From contig CALBUZ010000208.1 in assembly GCA_937969105.1 (NCBI GenBank), forward strand, positions 1 through 11,520: a stretch of DNA of 11,520 nucleotides, written 5' to 3'. This document shows, in pieces, positions 2,178 through 9,780 of this stretch; positions within the stretch are counted from its first letter, which is position 1; each line of letters begins with the position of its first letter. The translations under genes and the position numbers were made by a program. Source of the stretch: an uncultured Collinsella sp. Lineage in GTDB: Bacteria; Actinomycetota; Coriobacteriia; Coriobacteriales; Coriobacteriaceae. The notes under the pieces are model-generated. The model ran no database searches, was not told the origin of the DNA, and saw only the letters and a list, made by a program, of their open reading frames with translations.

Positions 2178-2912
2178 TCAAGCTCGAGCAATGATGTTCC
2201 TACCGATGCCGGTCAGGCGCTCGATCTGCCGAATCGTCAGGCCGGCGTTCTTGAGTTTCAAGATTAGCTCATTGCGTCTCGCACGGCTCAGAGCCTTGAG
2301 CTCGGAGGGGAGAAGCCCGTCAAGCTCGCGCACGGCCGTTTCGTGCGCCTCGGAATCAGAAAGGCGGGAGAACACCCCTCCAACACGACGATCGACAGCG
2401 GCCTTGCTGAAACGCTTGAACCCAGAGACGCCCCCGACCATGCTCAGCACCAGGTTCGCGTCGACACGACCCGAACCTGCGACATACTCGTGATAGCTGC
2501 TCCACCAGTACTCTTCCGCCTTGCAGGTCCCCGCCTTCGCCGGGTTCTCGTGTATGTAGCGGACGAGCTGGAGAAGGTATTCGTCGCTCTCCACGGGGCA
2601 GCTCTTGAATCGCTGCTGGAAGACGTGCCCGACATGTCCCGTTCGCTTGTTATAGCTCTGGGCATAGCCTGACAACAGGGAGCGCATCATCTCCCCAAGC
2701 TCGTCATCGCCGTCTCGAACAAGGAGATGCACGTGGTTTGGCATGAGGCAGTAGGCGATGAGAGACACACCGTGTTTATCGGCACAGGAGCCCAGGGACT
2801 CGAGGAATACCGCATAGTCCCCACCGCACTCAAACAAGAGCTGACCACCAGAGCCCCTAGCCATGACGTGATAGTACCCGGACGACGACTTTGCCCTTGC
2901 CACCCTTGGCAT
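2178..2912 (-). CDS. REP-associated tyrosine transposase (Y1_Tnp, IS200-like)
   Basis: A 244-residue HUH-superfamily single-strand DNA transposase. The HUH metal-binding motif is H60-V-H62 in CLMPNHVHLLV. The likely catalytic tyrosine is Y87 (or Y83) in SGYAQSYNKR, followed by the family block GHVGHVFQQRFKS and the segment YIHENPAKAG. The C-terminal part (about 200-244) carries a helix-turn-helix, LTIRQIERLTGIGRN, as in many long RAYTs with a DnaA-like tail. The start at 2912 is supported by GGGGAGG six bases upstream and by the family beginning MPR-ARxxSxGYYHVMxRG. A small hairpin (2923-2935) lies next to the ribosome site. All catalytic residues are intact, so it could be active. By family knowledge it acts on the palindromes that bracket it. 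Confidence 0.93.
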   Translation of the reverse strand: MPRVARAKSSSGYYHVMARGSGGQLLFECGGDYAVFLESLGSCADKHGVSLIAYCLMPNHVHLLVRDGDDELGEMMRSLLSGYAQSYNKRTGHVGHVFQQRFKSCPVESDEYLLQLVRYIHENPAKAGTCKAEEYWWSSYHEYVAGSGRVDANLVLSMVGGVSGFKRFSKAAVDRRVGGVFSRLSDSEAHETAVRELDGLLPSELKALSRARRNELILKLKNAGLTIRQIERLTGIGRNIIARA

Positions 2913-2939
2913 GATGCCTCCCCTCAAAGCTTGAGAAGG

Positions 2940-2969
2940 CTTATACCCACGGCAGCAGCGTAATCGGAA
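2940..2969 (-). promoter_or_regulatory. Possible transposase promoter
   Basis: On the minus strand TATAAG (2945-2940) is a good -10 match, 18 nt after a weak -35, TTCCGA (2969-2964). It lies between the right palindrome and the transposase ribosome site. The -35 is poor, so this is tentative. Confidence 0.33.
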
Positions 2970-3011
2970 GAGAAAGAAAATGAGACAAGGGGACTGTCCC
3001 CTTGTCTCATT
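2967..3011 (-). terminator. Probable terminator of the tsa fusion, formed by the RAYT palindrome
   Basis: On the minus strand the tsaD stop codon is followed after 1-2 nt by a perfect stem of 16 bp, then ATTTTCTTTCTCTT. A strong stem followed by a pyrimidine/U-rich tail is the layout of an intrinsic terminator. The loop would be tight because the two arms meet at a single base, so in practice a few central pairs must open. Confidence 0.55.
2979..3011. repeat. RAYT-flanking palindrome, tsaD side
   Basis: A perfect 33-nt palindrome, 16-nt arms around T2995; the core shared with the other copy is 2982-3008. It ends one base before the tsaD stop codon (3013-3015). The perfect symmetry contrasts with the one-mismatch copy at 2135-2161. 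Confidence 0.9.
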
Positions 3012-3012
3012 G

Positions 3013-5469
3013 CTAGCGCTCCCAGTGGGGCGGGACGGGCGCGGCCGAGGAGGACCAGGTGCCAAGCGCGGCGTTCGGGTCGGCGTCGAGGGTGAGCGGG
3101 GCAAAGTCGCCGGCCAGGTAGCTGCGCAGCGCCGGGATGCCGATCATCGCGGCATTGTCGCCGCAGGCGGCCAGGGGCGGCACCGTCACGTGGACGCCCA
3201 TGCGGCCAAAGCGGCGCCGGTACGCCTCGCGCAGCGCCGGGTTGGCAGAGACGCCCCCGCCGATGCACACGTCGCTCACGCCCGTCTGCTCCACGGCCGT
3301 CACGGCCTTTGCCACCTGCACGTCCACCACGGCGGCCTCGAAGCTCGCCGCGAGGTCGGGCAGGTTGATGGGCCTGCCTGCGCGGTTCTCGTTGTTGATG
3401 TAGGTGATGACACTCGTCTTGAGACCGCTCAGGCTGAAGCTGTAGTCGCCGCTGTGCATCATCGCGCGCGGGAAGTGGATGGCCTTGCGGTTGCCCTTCT
3501 CTGCAAGCTTGCTGATGACCGGGCCGCCGGGATATCCCAGCCCCAGCGCCTTGGCGACCTTGTCGAACGCCTCGCCCACCGCGTCATCGATCGTGGCGCC
3601 AAGGACCTCGTAGTCTCCCCAGGCGCGCACGTGCACGAGCATCGTGTTGCCGCCGGAGACGAGGCTCGCCACGAACGGCGGCTTGAGGTCGGGGGTCTCG
3701 AAGAGGTTCGCCATGAGGTGGCCCTCGAGGTGGTGCACGGCGATGAGCGGCAGGCCGGTGGCGGCGCACAGGCCCTTGGAGAAGGCCACGCCCACCACAA
3801 GCGCGCCGACGAGCCCCGGACCCGCGGTGACGCCCACGGCGGCAAGATCGTCAGGAGCCAACGTGTCCACGCCAAAGTGGGCGCCAGCCTGGGCAAGCGT
3901 CTCCTCGAGCACGCCCACGATCGCCTCGGTGTGCTTGCGCGAGGCAATCTCGGGCACCACGCCGCCAAAGCGCGCGTGGAAGTCGATCTGGGTGGCCACG
4001 ACGCTCGCGCAGACCACGCCATGCGAGTCCGTCACGGCCATGGCCGTCTCGTCGCAGCTGCTCTCCACCGAGAGGATCAGCGGGCCGGCCGCGGCAATGC
4101 GCTCGCGGGCCTCGTCGCCGCGCGGTGCGGGCACGATGGGCCAGGGGCGGATGGACGTGCGCGGCGCCGGGTCACGGTCCGCGTCGGGAGCGAGGTCTGC
4201 AAGCGGCAGCCCGGCGCGCATGATGCGCGCGTCATGGCCCTGGCCGTAATAGTTGGGCCGCACGCCCACCTCGGCAAAGCCCAGGCGCTCATAGAGATGC
4301 TCGGCAGGCTCGTTGCCCACCTCGACCTCGAGAATGGCACACGTGGCGCCAAGCATCTGGGCGTCATAGGCCACGCGCGTGAGCAGCCTGCCGGCTATGC
4401 CCTCGTGACGGCGCCCCTCGGCAACGGCCACGTCGGAGACCTGCAGCTCGTCGGCAACCACCGTGCCGCCCGCGAAGCCTATGATCGCCCCGCGGTCATG
4501 AGCGACCCACCACAGGTGGCCGTGCTGGGTCACGTCGTCATTGAACGCCTGCTCGCTCCAGGGCGCGTGGCTCGCACCCGCAAACGCGCTCGCCTCGAGC
4601 TCGGCCACGGCGCGGACGTCGTTGACCGTCATGGGACGCAGTTGGCAGTGGATGCCGGCAAGCGCGTCGTCCACGCCGGTGACGGCGGCAGACAGCGGCT
4701 CCTTGAGGCCCAGCCTAGTGCGCTCGTTCTCCTCGGCATCGGAGAGGCGCGTGTAGATGGGCAGCACGAGGGCAGGATCGCCCGAGTCAACGGGGCTGTC
4801 CGAGACGCCTCGGAGCACGCCAGAAGCGGCGGCGGCACGAAGCAGGCCCTCGCCCGAGGGATGCCAGGCGTCCTCGTCAGCGAAGCGCGAGAAGCCCGCG
4901 GCCTCAAACTGGGCGCGATACTTCTTGAGGCCATCGCCCGCAAGCGCAATCTCCCCGGCGTCGTCGCGCGCGGCCCAAGCCTCGATGGCATCGGGCGCCT
5001 TCACGACGGTCTCGACCTCAAACAGGCGCACGGGGCCGTCCTCGCCCACCTCGTAGAGGGCCGGGTAGACCTCGCGGCGCATGGCGTCTCCCACAACGCC
5101 CACGAGCCCGCGCACGCCGTGGGCCCACACGCCCCAGGCAACGGCGTCGAGCGTGGACACGCCGTAGAGCGCGCGGCCCAGGCCGCACGCGAGTCCCTTT
5201 GCCGTGGCGATGCCGATGCGCACGCCCGTGAACGAGCCGGGACCGCGCCCCACGAGCACCGCGTCCACGTCCGCCATCGCAAGGCCGGCGCGGCCCAGGA
5301 CGTCCAGGCACGTGGTCACGAGCTCCTCGTTGGCATGGCGACGACACAGGTGGTCGCCGCTCGCCAGCAGCTCGACGCCCTCCTCGCCCAGACGCCCGAC
5401 GGCGCAGGCAAGCATGTCCGTCGACGTGTCGACGGCAAGGACGATCTTCTCGGCAGTGGCTTCGCTCAT
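3013..5469 (-). CDS. TsaB-RimI-TsaD triple fusion (t6A tRNA modification and protein N-acetylation)
   Basis: An 818-residue cytosolic protein joining three enzymes usually encoded separately. TsaB-like (about 8-245): AVDTSTDMLACAV and GRGPGSFTGVRIGIATAKG, the dimerisation partner of TsaD. RimI-like GNAT acetyltransferase (about 275-420): acetyl-CoA loop RRHEGIAGRLL, LEVEVGN with E381, and Y393 in LYERLGF, then the RimI signature RPNYYG. TsaD (about 464-805): SVESSCDETAMAV, metal ligands H580 and H584 in HHLEGHLMAN, D771 in CGDNAAMIG, plus SGGNTML, SLSGLKT and GGGVSAN. TsaB-TsaD transfers the threonylcarbamoyl group from TsaC product to A37 of ANN-decoding tRNAs, helped by TsaE. RimI acetylates ribosomal protein S18 in E. 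coli. The ATG at 5469 begins homologous sequence; the ribosome site is weak (AAAGG about 10 nt away). All three active sites look intact. I recall such fusions in Coriobacteriia, but the arrangement is uncommon elsewhere. Confidence 0.96.
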   Translation of the reverse strand: MSEATAEKIVLAVDTSTDMLACAVGRLGEEGVELLASGDHLCRRHANEELVTTCLDVLGRAGLAMADVDAVLVGRGPGSFTGVRIGIATAKGLACGLGRALYGVSTLDAVAWGVWAHGVRGLVGVVGDAMRREVYPALYEVGEDGPVRLFEVETVVKAPDAIEAWAARDDAGEIALAGDGLKKYRAQFEAAGFSRFADEDAWHPSGEGLLRAAAASGVLRGVSDSPVDSGDPALVLPIYTRLSDAEENERTRLGLKEPLSAAVTGVDDALAGIHCQLRPMTVNDVRAVAELEASAFAGASHAPWSEQAFNDDVTQHGHLWWVAHDRGAIIGFAGGTVVADELQVSDVAVAEGRRHEGIAGRLLTRVAYDAQMLGATCAILEVEVGNEPAEHLYERLGFAEVGVRPNYYGQGHDARIMRAGLPLADLAPDADRDPAPRTSIRPWPIVPAPRGDEARERIAAAGPLILSVESSCDETAMAVTDSHGVVCASVVATQIDFHARFGGVVPEIASRKHTEAIVGVLEETLAQAGAHFGVDTLAPDDLAAVGVTAGPGLVGALVVGVAFSKGLCAATGLPLIAVHHLEGHLMANLFETPDLKPPFVASLVSGGNTMLVHVRAWGDYEVLGATIDDAVGEAFDKVAKALGLGYPGGPVISKLAEKGNRKAIHFPRAMMHSGDYSFSLSGLKTSVITYINNENRAGRPINLPDLAASFEAAVVDVQVAKAVTAVEQTGVSDVCIGGGVSANPALREAYRRRFGRMGVHVTVPPLAACGDNAAMIGIPALRSYLAGDFAPLTLDADPNAALGTWSSSAAPVPPHWER

Positions 5470-5541
5470 GGGTTGGGGCCTTTCATGTGGTGCGAGTAAC
5501 CCATTTAGTTTAGCCGTCCGCCCCAAGGGGGAACAGGGCCA

Positions 5542-5571
5542 CGCGAGCACCTCATACGCCGCAGGCTCGCG
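5542..5571 (-). other. Stem-loop between DUF3783 gene and the tsa fusion
   Basis: CGCGAGC (5542-5548) pairs perfectly with GCTCGCG (5565-5571) around a 16-nt loop, 11 nt past the DUF3783 stop codon. There is no U-tract, so it is not a standard terminator; it could slow or process the transcript. In the rest of this 112-nt gap I see AT-rich TAAACTAAAT about 40 nt before the tsa start (minus strand), a weak -10 candidate without a good -35. Confidence 0.3.
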
Positions 5572-5581
5572 AGAGGGGAGG

Positions 5582-6010
5582 CTACGCCCCGCCCATGGCT
5601 GCGTGCTCGGCGGCAACGGCCTCGATGAGCCTGCCGAGCGGCCAGTTGCGATTGGCCGAGGTGAGCAGGGCCTTCGCCCCCACGACGCACCCCGCTTCCC
5701 GACTCCGCGCGAGAAACTCGTCCACCTGGGCATTCGTGAAGCCGCAGAGCAGCGCGAACTCGCAGTCGGGCGCGGCGACGCCACCAGGCGCGGACGGCGC
5801 CACATGCCCATGCCCGCCCGCTACGACGCCGGCGGGAAGCCCCAGCTGCTCGACTCGCGCCGTTCTGGCGCGCACGTCCATCTCGCGCAGCACGGCCCGC
5901 ACGGCCGCCCCGCGCTCGGAAGAGGGGTCAAGCCCCCAGAGCACCGCAGTCGCGGACCTTGAGGGCTTGACCTTCTTGCCAGGCTTCTTCTTGGAAGTCT
6001 TTGCGCTCAT
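5582..6010 (-). CDS. Small DUF3783-like protein of unknown function
   Basis: A 142-residue soluble protein with no membrane segment. The first 20 residues are lysine-rich (KTSKKKPGKKVK) and look disordered. Residues about 84-138 resemble the DUF3783 domain: a hydrophobic core (EFALLCGFTNAQVDEFLARSRE), then KALLTSANRNWPLGRLIEAVAAEH, whose K-x-LT-x-x-N-x-x-W-x-L-x-x-LI pattern is the family hallmark as I remember it. The middle is a glycine/alanine-rich linker with GGHGHV. No catalytic residues can be named and I do not know its function. It starts 3 nt after the rubrerythrin stop codon and lacks a clear ribosome site of its own, so translation is probably coupled to that gene. A link to oxidative stress is therefore plausible but only from position. 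Confidence 0.85.
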   Translation of the reverse strand: MSAKTSKKKPGKKVKPSRSATAVLWGLDPSSERGAAVRAVLREMDVRARTARVEQLGLPAGVVAGGHGHVAPSAPGGVAAPDCEFALLCGFTNAQVDEFLARSREAGCVVGAKALLTSANRNWPLGRLIEAVAAEHAAMGGA

Positions 6011-8056: not shown

Positions 8057-9436
8057 ATGAACACCGAGGAAATTGCGCGCATCGTCGGCGATCAGCGTGC
8101 CTACTTTAAGACACACGCCACGTTTGATGTCGATGCTCGACGTCGCGCGCTCGCGAGTTTACGCGATGCGGTGCGGGCCCACGAGGCCGATATTGCCCAT
8201 GCGCTCAAGACCGATTTGGGTAAGTCGCATGACGAGGCATATATGTGCGAGATCGGCACCTCGCTTTCCGAGATTCGTCATCAGATTGCGCATGTGGCTC
8301 GATGGAGTCGTCCGCGCCTGCGTCCGTGTGACCTCGCTAACGCCGTGAGCGTGTGCAAAACGCAAGCCGTGCCCTATGGCGTCACGCTCATCATGGCGCC
8401 CTGGAACTATCCGTTTTTGCTGACGCTCGAGCCGCTCGCTGGCGCGCTCGCTGCAGGTAACACCGTGGTCATCAAGCCGAGCGCCTATGCGCCGGCTTCG
8501 AGCGCGGTGCTCAGGCAGATTTGCGAGGAAGCATTTGATCCGCGCCTGGTGACGGTCGTCGAAGGCGGGCGTGCCGAGAATGAGGCGCTGCTCGACGAGT
8601 GCTGGGACAAGATCTTCTTTACCGGTAGCGTTCCGGTCGGCAAGCTCGTCATGGAGCGCGCAAGTGAAAACCTCACGCCCGTGACGCTTGAACTGGGCGG
8701 AAAGAGCCCCTGCATCGTGGATGCGACGGCAAACTTGAAGGTCGCGGCACGCCGCATCGCATTTGGTAAATGGCTCAACGCGGGCCAGACCTGTGTAGCG
8801 CCCGACTATCTGCTGGTCGATACGCGCGTGCACGACGAGCTGTTGGACCTCATCAGGGAAGAGGCCCGCCGCATGTTTGGCGAGCATCCGCTCGACAACG
8901 AGGACTACGGTCATATTGTCAATGCCAAGCATTTTGCGCGCGTACGCGGGCTGATCGACCCCGATAAGGTTGTGCTGGGAGGCACGGCGCGCGAGTCGTC
9001 GCTCAAGATTGAGCCGACGATCTTAGACGGTGTGGCGCCTGAGGACGCCGTGATGCAGGAGGAGATTTTCGGCCCCATCTTACCGGTGCTGACGTTTGAG
9101 AGCCTAGACGAGGCCGAGACGTTTATTACGGATCGTCCGACGCCGCTGGCCCTGTATATTTTTAGTCAGGATCGCGCGGTTCAGCAGCGCTTTGTGGGCT
9201 ACGTGCCCTTTGGCGGCGGCTGCGTTAACGACACCATCATGCACTTAGCTACGAGCCATATGGGCTTTGGTGGCATGGGCGCGAGCGGTATGGGTCAGTA
9301 CCATGGCCGCGAGAGCTTCGATACGTTTAGCCACAAGAAGAGCATCGTGAACAAGGCAACCTGGCTGGACGTGCCGTTTCGGTATGCGCCCTACGCAAGC
9401 TGGAAGCACAAATTCGTGCGCATGTTTGTGCATTAG
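8057..9436 (+). CDS. Class 3-type aldehyde dehydrogenase, NAD(P)-dependent
   Basis: A 459-residue aldehyde dehydrogenase oxidising an aldehyde to its acid in the cytosol. It belongs to the shorter class 3 / YwdH-like branch. Key features are PWNYPFLLTLEPLAGALAAGNTVVIKPS (N117 of the oxyanion hole), the cofactor turn FTGSVPVGK (188-196), the general base E212 in LELGGKSP, the nucleophile C246 in NAGQTCVAPDY, and EEIFGPILPV (335-344). The C-terminal end, FRYAPY...KHKFVRMF, is typical of this branch. AGGAGGG stands directly before the ATG at 8057, and only 8 nt separate it from the alcohol dehydrogenase, so the two are co-transcribed and may act in sequence on the same aldehyde. All catalytic residues are present. 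A long dyad starts 1-2 nt past its stop codon. Substrate unknown. Confidence 0.95.
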   Translation: MNTEEIARIVGDQRAYFKTHATFDVDARRRALASLRDAVRAHEADIAHALKTDLGKSHDEAYMCEIGTSLSEIRHQIAHVARWSRPRLRPCDLANAVSVCKTQAVPYGVTLIMAPWNYPFLLTLEPLAGALAAGNTVVIKPSAYAPASSAVLRQICEEAFDPRLVTVVEGGRAENEALLDECWDKIFFTGSVPVGKLVMERASENLTPVTLELGGKSPCIVDATANLKVAARRIAFGKWLNAGQTCVAPDYLLVDTRVHDELLDLIREEARRMFGEHPLDNEDYGHIVNAKHFARVRGLIDPDKVVLGGTARESSLKIEPTILDGVAPEDAVMQEEIFGPILPVLTFESLDEAETFITDRPTPLALYIFSQDRAVQQRFVGYVPFGGGCVNDTIMHLATSHMGFGGMGASGMGQYHGRESFDTFSHKKSIVNKATWLDVPFRYAPYASWKHKFVRMFVH

Positions 9437-9437
9437 G

Positions 9438-9481
9438 AAATGACAGGTAATACGAACAAGTGTTCCTATTACCTGTCATTT
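9438..9481. terminator. 44-nt dyad after the aldehyde dehydrogenase: terminator and/or operator
   Basis: Perfect 15-bp outer arms (9438-9452 with 9467-9481), one C/C mismatch, then an inner 5-bp stem GAACA/TGTTC around AG. Transcribed, it would be a very stable hairpin, ended by TCATTTACG, a weak U-tail. Both strands end in ATTT, so it could stop transcription from either side. Its core is also a LexA box. No other copy exists in the window. Confidence 0.6.
9453..9466 (+). promoter_or_regulatory. LexA (SOS) box
   Basis: CGAACAAGTGTTCC fits the Gram-positive LexA/DinR consensus CGAACRNRYGTTYC at every position. It lies at the centre of the 44-nt dyad and overlaps or abuts the -35 region of the small ORF that follows. 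Because it is inside a larger palindrome, its symmetry alone is not independent evidence; the specific bases are. Confidence 0.55.
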
Positions 9482-9502
9482 ACGTTAGACTACTGCTATG
9501 GG
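9473..9502 (+). promoter_or_regulatory. Possible promoter of the small peptide gene
   Basis: CTGTCA (9473-9478, 4 of 6 to -35), an 18-nt spacer, and TGCTATGGG (extended -10 TGn at 9495, hexamer 9497-9502). An alternative is TTCCTA (9463-9468) with TAGACT (9486-9491) at 17 nt. Either places the LexA box on or next to the -35. Both are weak matches. Confidence 0.33.
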
Positions 9503-9513
9503 GTGCGGATGGG

Positions 9514-9538
9514 CCAACTCCCTTTAGAAGGGAATTGG
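9514..9538 (+). promoter_or_regulatory. Hairpin burying the Shine-Dalgarno sequence of the small ORF
   Basis: CCAA (9514-9517) pairs with TTGG (9535-9538) and TCCCTT (9519-9524) with AAGGGA (9528-9533), loop TAG, one C/A mismatch between the stems. The AAGGGA arm is the ribosome site of the ORF starting at 9540, so the stem hides it. Translation must need opening of the hairpin, as in many type I toxin mRNAs. Confidence 0.65.
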
Positions 9539-9539
9539 T

Positions 9540-9623
9540 ATGAACGTAAGCGATGTTATTTCGTTACTGGCGTTGTTAATCGCGGCTATCGAACTCGGCC
9601 TGTTTATCGGCCGAATGAAATAG
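9540..9623 (+). CDS. 27-residue hydrophobic peptide, type I toxin-like
   Basis: An ORF of 27 codons encoding a short polar start (MNVSDV), a hydrophobic helix of about 17 residues (ISLLALLIAAIELGLFI) with one central glutamate, and a basic end (GRMK). Size and shape resemble type I toxins and the small holin-like peptides of Gram-positive bacteria, which sit in the membrane. AAGGGA stands 6 nt before the ATG but is held in a hairpin. A LexA box lies about 75 nt upstream and a series of hairpins follows the stop codon. I have seen the same plan (tiny ORF, then CCGCCC...GGCGGCC-type hairpin, then CAACCCG...CGGGTTG-type hairpin) in many Firmicutes and Actinobacteria genomes, from memory. No antisense antitoxin promoter could be pinpointed on the minus strand. 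Toxin activity is inference; coding potential is fairly likely. Confidence 0.62.
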   Translation: MNVSDVISLLALLIAAIELGLFIGRMK

Positions 9624-9705
9624 CCGCCCCCGCGTAAGCGAAGACGGCCACTTCTCACGCTACAAACGTGTTTGGGAGCTGGCCAACCCGCTGCAACGGG
9701 TGCCA
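9623..9705 (+). ncRNA. Structured 3' region of the small peptide transcript
   Basis: Three hairpins follow the ORF: GCCG/CGGC with inner CGC/GCG (9623-9648), CACG/CGTG (9656-9670), and TGGC-ca-ACCCG/CGGGT-GCCA (9680-9705, loop CTGCAA). The last is the strongest and is followed by TCTGCTTCAATCTTA, a partly U-rich tail, so it may be the terminator. I call it an RNA element because the structure is compact and tied to the ORF. Confidence 0.45.
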
Positions 9706-9780
9706 TCTGCTTCAATCTTATGCGAATCCCGATCCCATTTCAACAAGCTCCAAGGGCTCAAATGGAATCGCAATAATACC

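Follow-up and report, generated by a model that had tools for sequence, protein, structure and literature searches.

The described systems closest to the element studied here are type I toxin-antitoxin (TA) modules. In E. coli, TisB/IstR-1 and DinQ/AgrB combine hydrophobic membrane peptides of 29 and 27 aa, respectively, with a LexA promoter and an RNA antitoxin, and tisB displays an inhibitory 5' structure (available parts of PMC8309996 and PMC4147584). According to the accessible text of PMC6563280, dinQ, tisB and symE of E. coli are SOS-inducible, and expression of type I TAs responds to genotoxic and further stresses in B. subtilis, S. aureus and E. coli; damage-responsive type I systems are therefore not without precedent in Gram-positive bacteria. 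In TxpA/RatA, BsrG/SR4 and YonT/SR6 of B. subtilis, a convergent antitoxin about 100 nt long overlaps the mRNA 3' end (excerpts of PMC4147584 and PMC5848175); indeed, all Gram-positive type I systems described until 2014 overlapped at their 3' ends (PMC4147584, in part). A 2025 report states, in its accessible portion, that type I systems were previously known only from Proteobacteria, Firmicutes and Tenericutes, the first ones outside these phyla being cyanobacterial (PMC12390103). The open-access literature contained no report of a type I toxin in Collinsella, Coriobacteriia or Actinobacteria, nor of a LexA-controlled Gram-positive type I system, and such reports may exist elsewhere. One paper mentioned both Collinsella and a type I toxin, its abstract being concerned with type II systems (PMC7354421).

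The DNA analysed here (the window) is the whole stretch of 11,520 nucleotides from an uncultured Collinsella sp. Our results suggest that positions 9438-9743, located in a gap between an ALDH gene and a ThiF-family gene, quite probably form a complete type I TA-like module and define a new family of Coriobacteriia that is LexA-controlled in several lineages. An operator, a leader hairpin, a closing stem, an ORF and positioned antisense signals were read from the DNA itself, together with three allelic states in relatives. The features are the following.

8057-9436: ALDH gene, upstream of the gap.
9438-9481, no strand assigned: palindrome with 15-bp arms, centred on the LexA box, just past the ALDH stop.
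9453-9466, plus strand: LexA operator CGAACAAGTGTTCC, an exact GAAC-N4-GTTC like those that precede lexA.
9486-9491, plus strand: putative -10 of the toxin promoter, TAGACT (TATACT in L001), read by eye.
9505-9512, plus strand: 5' arm of the closing stem, pairing at long range with 9703-9710.
9513-9539, plus strand: leader hairpin over the Shine-Dalgarno sequence (SD, about 9527-9533).
9540-9623, plus strand: toxin-like membrane peptide of 27 aa, MNVSDVISLLALLIAAIELGLFIGRMK, best 19-residue hydropathy 2.53.
9582-9589 with 9620-9627, plus strand: in-ORF pairing of the Ala-Ala-Ile codons with the stop-codon region, in the best fold.
9619-9715, plus strand: conserved 3' module with hairpins 9646-9684 and 9686-9701 and closing arm 9703-9710, described by covariance model R1.
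9613-9709, minus strand: antisense antitoxin RNA (about 95 nt) predicted to begin across from the 3' closing arm and to stop at the toxin stop codon.
9614-9641, minus strand: predicted intrinsic terminator of the antitoxin, with a U-run complementary to the final Lys/stop codons of the toxin.
9715-9743, minus strand: predicted antitoxin promoter TTGAAA-17-TAAGAT, directly outside the 3' arm.
From 9830: ThiF-family gene downstream of the gap, then a TatD-family gene.

Two other genes of the window deserve mention. A 932-aa ORF (3013-5811, minus strand) matched the Pfam domains of TsaD and of GNAT acetyltransferases, its start looked TsaB-like by eye, and it is apparently a TsaB-RimI-TsaD fusion. 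At 2178-3104 (minus strand) lies a Y1/IS200-like transposase domain (PF01797), which we presume to resemble REP-associated transposases.

The window copy combined the surroundings of two loci found in relatives. On its left side, the match to locus A extended as far as 9707-9721; on its right side, the match to locus B began at 9505, 9577 or 9618-9621. None of 30 loci of the genus joined these two sides. From these matches, the window copy is an A/B hybrid with its junction at 9505-9721, due either to an inversion between two copies or to an assembly chimera: recombination between two copies would create such a junction by inversion, and a chimeric assembly would give the same. Loci A and B occurred in opposite orientation, about 160-180 kb apart on the same contig, in G001, G002, G007 and G024 (the distance in G001 assumes a circular chromosome, and site B is empty in G001, G007 and G024). 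The hybrid closing stem reached only -14.9 kcal/mol versus -23.2 to -28.7 kcal/mol in native copies, and the 5' arm of the window reached -28.7 kcal/mol with the 3' arm of an L001-type locus A copy.

The 14-base operator noticed in the earlier note is present and was the sole exact GAAC-N4-GTTC of the window, a motif that we take to be the Gram-positive LexA consensus. This assignment was sustained by the operators of lexA itself: the gene was found in 10 of 10 genomes searched and each of the 10 genes was preceded by two exact boxes (e.g. CGAACAGTTGTTCC and AGAACGAATGTTCG), which also supports LexA control of the element. Two further weak LexA-domain matches (L111 and L112) had no exact box upstream. 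Box and closing-arm counts were based on one copy per locus, i.e. 19 representative toxin loci (window and L002 omitted as copies of the L007 locus; L023 copy 322, with an in-frame toxin stop, and L151 and L159, without the usual stop, included). When 150 nt upstream were searched, an exact box occurred 77-89 nt before the ATG in seven of these 19 loci, versus a mean of 0.03 and a maximum of 1 locus over 1000 shuffled runs. The seven loci, among which is L007, the orthologue of the window copy, belonged to three families of the order (f1: L007 and L026; f2: L137, L141, L143 and L151; f3: L148). No exact box was found in the remaining 12 loci. Two of them displayed near-boxes at 67-68 nt (one mismatch in L033, two in L157); in the other ten, the best matches had 1-3 mismatches and lay at unrelated places, for instance across the SD in the two L023 copies, or at a distance of 134-144 nt in L145 and L155. 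All 15 exact boxes detected in 23 stretches (176,342 bases) picked for holding the element were located at the element. Among the 62 laid-out copies, which are not independent, an exact box accompanied 24 of the 41 with a toxin ORF and one of the 21 without (these include the ORF-less second L150 copy), the single exception (L142) being a truncated toxin. In nine aligned copies of locus A, GAAC and GTTC were invariant and variation was confined to the N4 bases. In the window and in seven of the 19 loci, the element thus shares with SOS-regulated type I systems such as TisB and DinQ a LexA operator in the (putative) toxin promoter.

The palindrome surrounding the box, on which the earlier note is silent, folded at -25.2 kcal/mol (9436-9486) and its arms covaried among relatives of locus A (CAGGTAATA/TATTACCTG in the window, CGGGTAATA/TATTACCCG in L003, CGGGCAATA/TATTGCCCG in L008). 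Acting as terminator or insulator, it probably keeps ALDH transcription from running into the toxin promoter. An Rfam match to mir-192 (22.6 and 18.3 bits versus 54) reflected only this palindromic shape and was discarded as a chance hairpin; no Rfam family matched above its gathering score. The LexA box probably lies near the -35 region and the toxin mRNA probably starts near 9498; a consensus scan of the window found no plus-strand promoter or terminator for this mRNA. Copies devoid of the box may use other promoters, e.g. a CRISPR leader, or transcription continuing from an nth-like gene.

Downstream of this promoter region, the hairpin proposed to mask the SD was recovered at 9513-9539, with -13.6 kcal/mol for the 42-nt leader plus ATG. 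Although leader sequences differ, the SD was placed in a stem in 18 of 21 folded leaders, the exceptions being both L023 copies, which lacked it, and L150, which was ambiguous. More generally, the 246-nt stretch 9480-9725 folded at -96.7 kcal/mol versus -76.8 +/- 5.1 for shuffled sequences (z -3.9; 0 of 200 as good). The closing stem, which pairs the first and last bases of the presumed transcript, differed in sequence from locus to locus: GCACGGATGG with CCATCCGTGT at locus A, GAAGCAGATGG with CCATCTGCTTC at locus B, CGTGCAAGGTGGC with GCCACCTTGCACG in L148 and ATATGGGACGAGCGG with CCGCTCGTCCCATAT in L155. Over the 19 loci, each 5' arm paired with its own 3' arm at a mean of -34.7 kcal/mol versus -24.6 after permutation, the best permutation giving -29.0, and none of 20,000 permutations attained the observed mean. 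The stem was part of the best fold in 20 of 21 copies, the exception being the L023 copy inside a CRISPR array. The own arm ranked first in 11 of the 21, with poor ranks for L023 (7th), L150 (9th), L151 (10th) and the window (12th). In L132, L141, L155 and L023 copy 322, the arms extended to imperfect inverted repeats of about 25 bp.

The 27-codon ORF was likewise confirmed and encodes a short hydrophobic peptide with a basic C-terminus, such a charged tail being typical of type I toxins. Among the 22 ORFs of the window with an ATG start and 22-40 aa, it was the only one reaching a hydropathy of 1.6. All 17 peptide variants were hydrophobic (best 19-aa mean 1.75-2.57); the N-terminus was net negative in 16 of 17 (neutral in one), the last eight residues were net positive in 16 of 17 (neutral in the L157 type), and in 15 of 17 an acidic N-terminus was combined with a basic C-terminus. 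The shared pattern is roughly M-x3-5-[DE]-x-hhh...V[IL]AAI-x-LG...R-K/R. Pattern and charge/hydropathy analyses each comprised 17 peptides from different sets, L151 and L159 being cut at the usual end in the latter. Variable sites (n = 34, four groups) were distributed 7/9/18 over codon positions 1/2/3, a modest bias and hence a moderate sign of a protein-coding frame. Pfam, NCBIfam and PHROGs searches with the ORF gave nothing over cut-off, and PF16935 (Hol_Tox) did not match the window peptide; the weak leads (PetL at 17.9 of 30.1 bits, DUF4305 at 16.3, Hol_Tox and TIGR04161) were rejected. Two overlapping frames were also dropped: one of 65 aa (9440-9637), which matched no family and of which a 42-aa part recurs in some locus A copies, and one of 63 aa on the minus strand (9524-9715), without family match. 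Alleles lacking the toxin stop codon were encountered in L010, L146 and L147; in L010, TAG was replaced by TGG, which the toxin-less copy L020 also carries, and recombination with a copy of that kind may be the origin of the change.

As for the compact hairpins announced after the stop, 9646-9684 and 9686-9701 were found in the best fold of the window and 9623-9648 was not; the latter belonged to the consensus of relatives, but to the best fold of only two of 21 mRNAs. Instead, the stop region ATAGCCGC paired with the Ala-Ala-Ile codons GCGGCTAT in the window, and stop-codon bases folded back into the ORF in 17 of 21 mRNA best folds. The Ala-Ala-Ile motif may therefore be kept partly for RNA structure, and part of the ORF conservation may serve RNA pairing. 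The comparison across relatives called for in the earlier note was favourable: leader hairpins and ORF frame were conserved and the closing arms were matched locus by locus. Codon bias was modest, and covariation of hairpin 9646-9684 did not emerge across families, since RNAalifold kept only 10 pairs on the wide alignment (A4).

The RNA antitoxin initially postulated is now supported by a predicted minus-strand promoter and terminator, and the predicted antisense unit (9709-9613) overlies the mRNA 3' module. In the window alone, these minus-strand scans were near chance (promoters: 1 versus 0.5 +/- 0.8 expected; terminators: 2 versus 0.5 +/- 0.9). The comparison comprised 34 copies at 32 distinct sites, with L014 and L020 as toxin-less alleles of B and A, respectively. 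In 32 of these copies, representing 30 of the distinct sites, the best minus-strand -10 kept a distance of 16-23 nt to a fixed point. Its mean score was 6.18 versus 1.78 (sd 2.51) in control windows, 5.8% of which reached the median score; weak -10 sequences were recorded in L022, L142, L152 and L153. A good -35 was often present, e.g. TTGACT-16-TATAAT in L033, TTGACA-18-TATACT in L150 and TTGAAA-17-TATAAT in L156. Promoter and terminator were also detected in the toxin-less copies L015 and L034, and the terminator U-run consisted of 8 U in L034 and L016.

DNA matches to the element were found in 25 of 43 genomes of the genus. In the class, model R1 matched 47 of 396 genomes, or 45 of 314 when only those of good quality are counted, and 11 of 153 genera; the class count is a lower bound because of stricter filters. 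A sample of 198 genomes of the phylum gave four matches, none of them outside the same order. Scanning the species genome collection with an exact pattern yielded 64 stretches, of which 23 scored at least 47.9 bits with R1 and were all from Collinsella or the uncultured actinobacterium hRUG864; the other 41 scored at most 22.4 bits and were rejected. No match occurred in 50,697 phage records or 72,556 plasmid records, and of five IMG/VR pattern matches, also rejected, only one scored (9.9 bits). Altogether, 71 model matches were obtained and 62 laid out; the nine omitted were duplicates (L035, L059, L079 and L100) and five weak secondary matches of 20.6-24.3 bits, each facing a true copy on the other strand. 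The class survey also gave a weak match in G005 (G005:C38). A genome contained at most three model matches, mostly divergent, and the genes next to the element differed from locus to locus.

Both loci of the genus displayed several allelic states. At locus A, 11 genomes could be read at the ALDH end (from a search of 16, four having no match and one only a 25-base match): one carried a full element, three the antisense half only and seven were empty. At locus B, eight of 15 matched genomes were read, seven being empty and one carrying the antisense half. Full copies were L001-L010 at locus A and L011-L013 and L026-L029 at locus B, where L014-L019 and L030 were half copies; further toxin-less halves occurred elsewhere in the class (L034, L036, L154, L156 and L158). 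The ORF, or the whole element, was thus missing without loss of neighbour genes. The simplest reading of these alleles would be that, at two loci of the genus, the toxin disappeared while the antisense half was retained.

Other sites displayed more unusual arrangements. A third site (L132, L021, L025, L022 and L032) lies directly 3' of a gene whose protein end, judged by eye, resembles endonuclease III (nth); there the LexA box was absent and the toxin was missing in L032 and mostly missing in L022. In Collinsella bouchesdurhonensis (L090, 5075-5175 and 6320-6415; L023), two copies were associated with a CRISPR-like array, one of them inside it. The array has 8 repeats with a start-to-start spacing of 65-66 nt, except for intervals of 459 nt, which holds the element, and 1179 nt. 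The inner copy lacked LexA box, SD hairpin and closing stem and may thus depend on the promoter of the array; its counterpart is interrupted by an in-frame stop. In G109, which belongs to a different family, an antitoxin-only copy (L034, 1501-1596), its terminator ending in 8 U, adjoined degenerate CRISPR-like repeats (1640-2989, 70-100% alike) similar to the C. bouchesdurhonensis repeat.

For transcription, damage induction, toxicity, neutralisation and the RNase III step, we infer the following course. LexA bound at 9453-9466 would shut the toxin promoter, which DNA damage and LexA self-cleavage would open. The toxin mRNA, running from about 9498 to about 9712, would have its ends paired and its SD locked in a hairpin, so that the full-length molecule would be poorly translated. 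From 9743-9715, the minus-strand promoter would deliver a short antisense RNA covering the whole mRNA 3' end; leaked mRNA, once paired with it, would be degraded or blocked, probably by way of RNase III. Upon SOS induction, mRNA would exceed antitoxin, and the 27-aa single-helix peptide would enter the membrane, depolarise the cell and slow growth. Beyond operator and folds, this scheme follows by analogy what the available parts of PMC4147584 and PMC8309996 say of TxpA/RatA, BsrG/SR4 and TisB. Its varied neighbours and its full, antitoxin-only and empty alleles at two loci suggest a self-contained unit, and the 3' half persisting alone in many genomes could have another job.

The same observations may be read otherwise. 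A small LexA-controlled membrane peptide could act without antitoxin, as a mild SOS checkpoint or division inhibitor on the model of YneA and SosA, the 3' hairpins being a terminator only. LexA box and peptide are solid, and the antisense RNA is a prediction whose signals in the window alone were near chance; yet this reading is unlikely in view of the constant place of the minus-strand -10 in 32 of 34 copies, the minus-strand terminators, the presence of exactly the antisense unit where the toxin is missing and the many copies without LexA box. The long imperfect inverted repeats of four copies, the occurrence of several copies per genome, the empty sites and the insertion inside a CRISPR array are reminiscent of a small non-autonomous MITE-like element with terminal inverted repeats, for which ORF and LexA box would be passengers aiding persistence. 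We consider this origin improbable, since no genome exceeded three, mostly divergent, matches, the arms, in contrast to transposon ends, varied in sequence from locus to locus, inspection by eye revealed no clear target duplication, and phage and plasmid records were devoid of the element. Finally, a short ORF in a strongly folded RNA, with coding/stop pairing in 17 of 21 best folds, might be a leader peptide within a structured RNA controlling a downstream gene rather than a toxin. The variety of neighbours, and their retention where the ORF or the whole element is absent, make this very improbable.

Within the preferred type I TA interpretation, a broader reading is possible, albeit rather doubtful as a whole. 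It would see a TA family without precedent in Actinomycetota, with a single inverted repeat fulfilling three jobs: it would lock the mRNA end to end, set the antisense start so that the antitoxin 5' end copies the mRNA 5' arm, and bracket a unit gained or lost by recombination. The stop region would double as pairing partner of the Ala-Ala-Ile codons and as antitoxin terminator. LexA control would have been kept or gained in three families, in parallel to TisB and DinQ of E. coli, and the toxin-less copies would be working orphan antitoxins directed against toxin copies elsewhere in the genome or on invading DNA.

If true, a LexA-switched family in Coriobacteriia would extend type I systems to another phylum and would mean that a coupling of SOS to a membrane peptide, as in E. 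coli, also emerged or was maintained in other bacteria. Such a family would also bear on the survival of gut Collinsella exposed to DNA-damaging drugs. The full, antitoxin-only and empty alleles of one locus form a natural set for testing what such systems do.

Compared with known systems, the element is close to TisB/IstR-1 and DinQ/AgrB in its peptide, LexA promoter and predicted RNA antitoxin, and to tisB in its 5' structure. These systems belong to another phylum, and the likeness drawn here concerns peptide size and character and mode of control; moreover, their antitoxins are encoded apart with limited complementarity (from the parts of PMC8309996 and PMC4147584 at hand), whereas the predicted antisense RNA of the element is convergent and overlaps the mRNA 3' end. 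In this latter respect it resembles TxpA/RatA, BsrG/SR4 and YonT/SR6; BsrG further has its RBS partly in a stem and TxpA undergoes the RNase III decay also proposed here (PMC4147584, in part). Differences are that LexA control is unmentioned in the accessible descriptions of these B. subtilis systems, that no family match links the peptides, and that the element displays antitoxin-only copies and a locus-matched 5'/3' closing stem. Among the peptides of nine relatives, one (L141) aligned from its first residue with the putative holin-like toxins Hol_Tox (PF16935), but its 13.4 bits are below the curated cut-off of 23.3, and PetL (17.9) and DUF4305 (16.3) scored as high below theirs. The copy inside a CRISPR array and the antitoxin-only copy beside degenerate repeats recall the CRISPR-adjacent type I TAs of C. 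difficile (PMC6563280, PMC7699646); these are, however, described as Sigma-B-linked, LexA being unmentioned in the text of both papers, and an unsystematic inspection showed no other copies of the element near CRISPR. Taken together, the sequence comparisons point to a new family, in a phylum unnamed in that literature, which would combine a TisB-like SOS switch of the E. coli type with a Bacillus-like layout.
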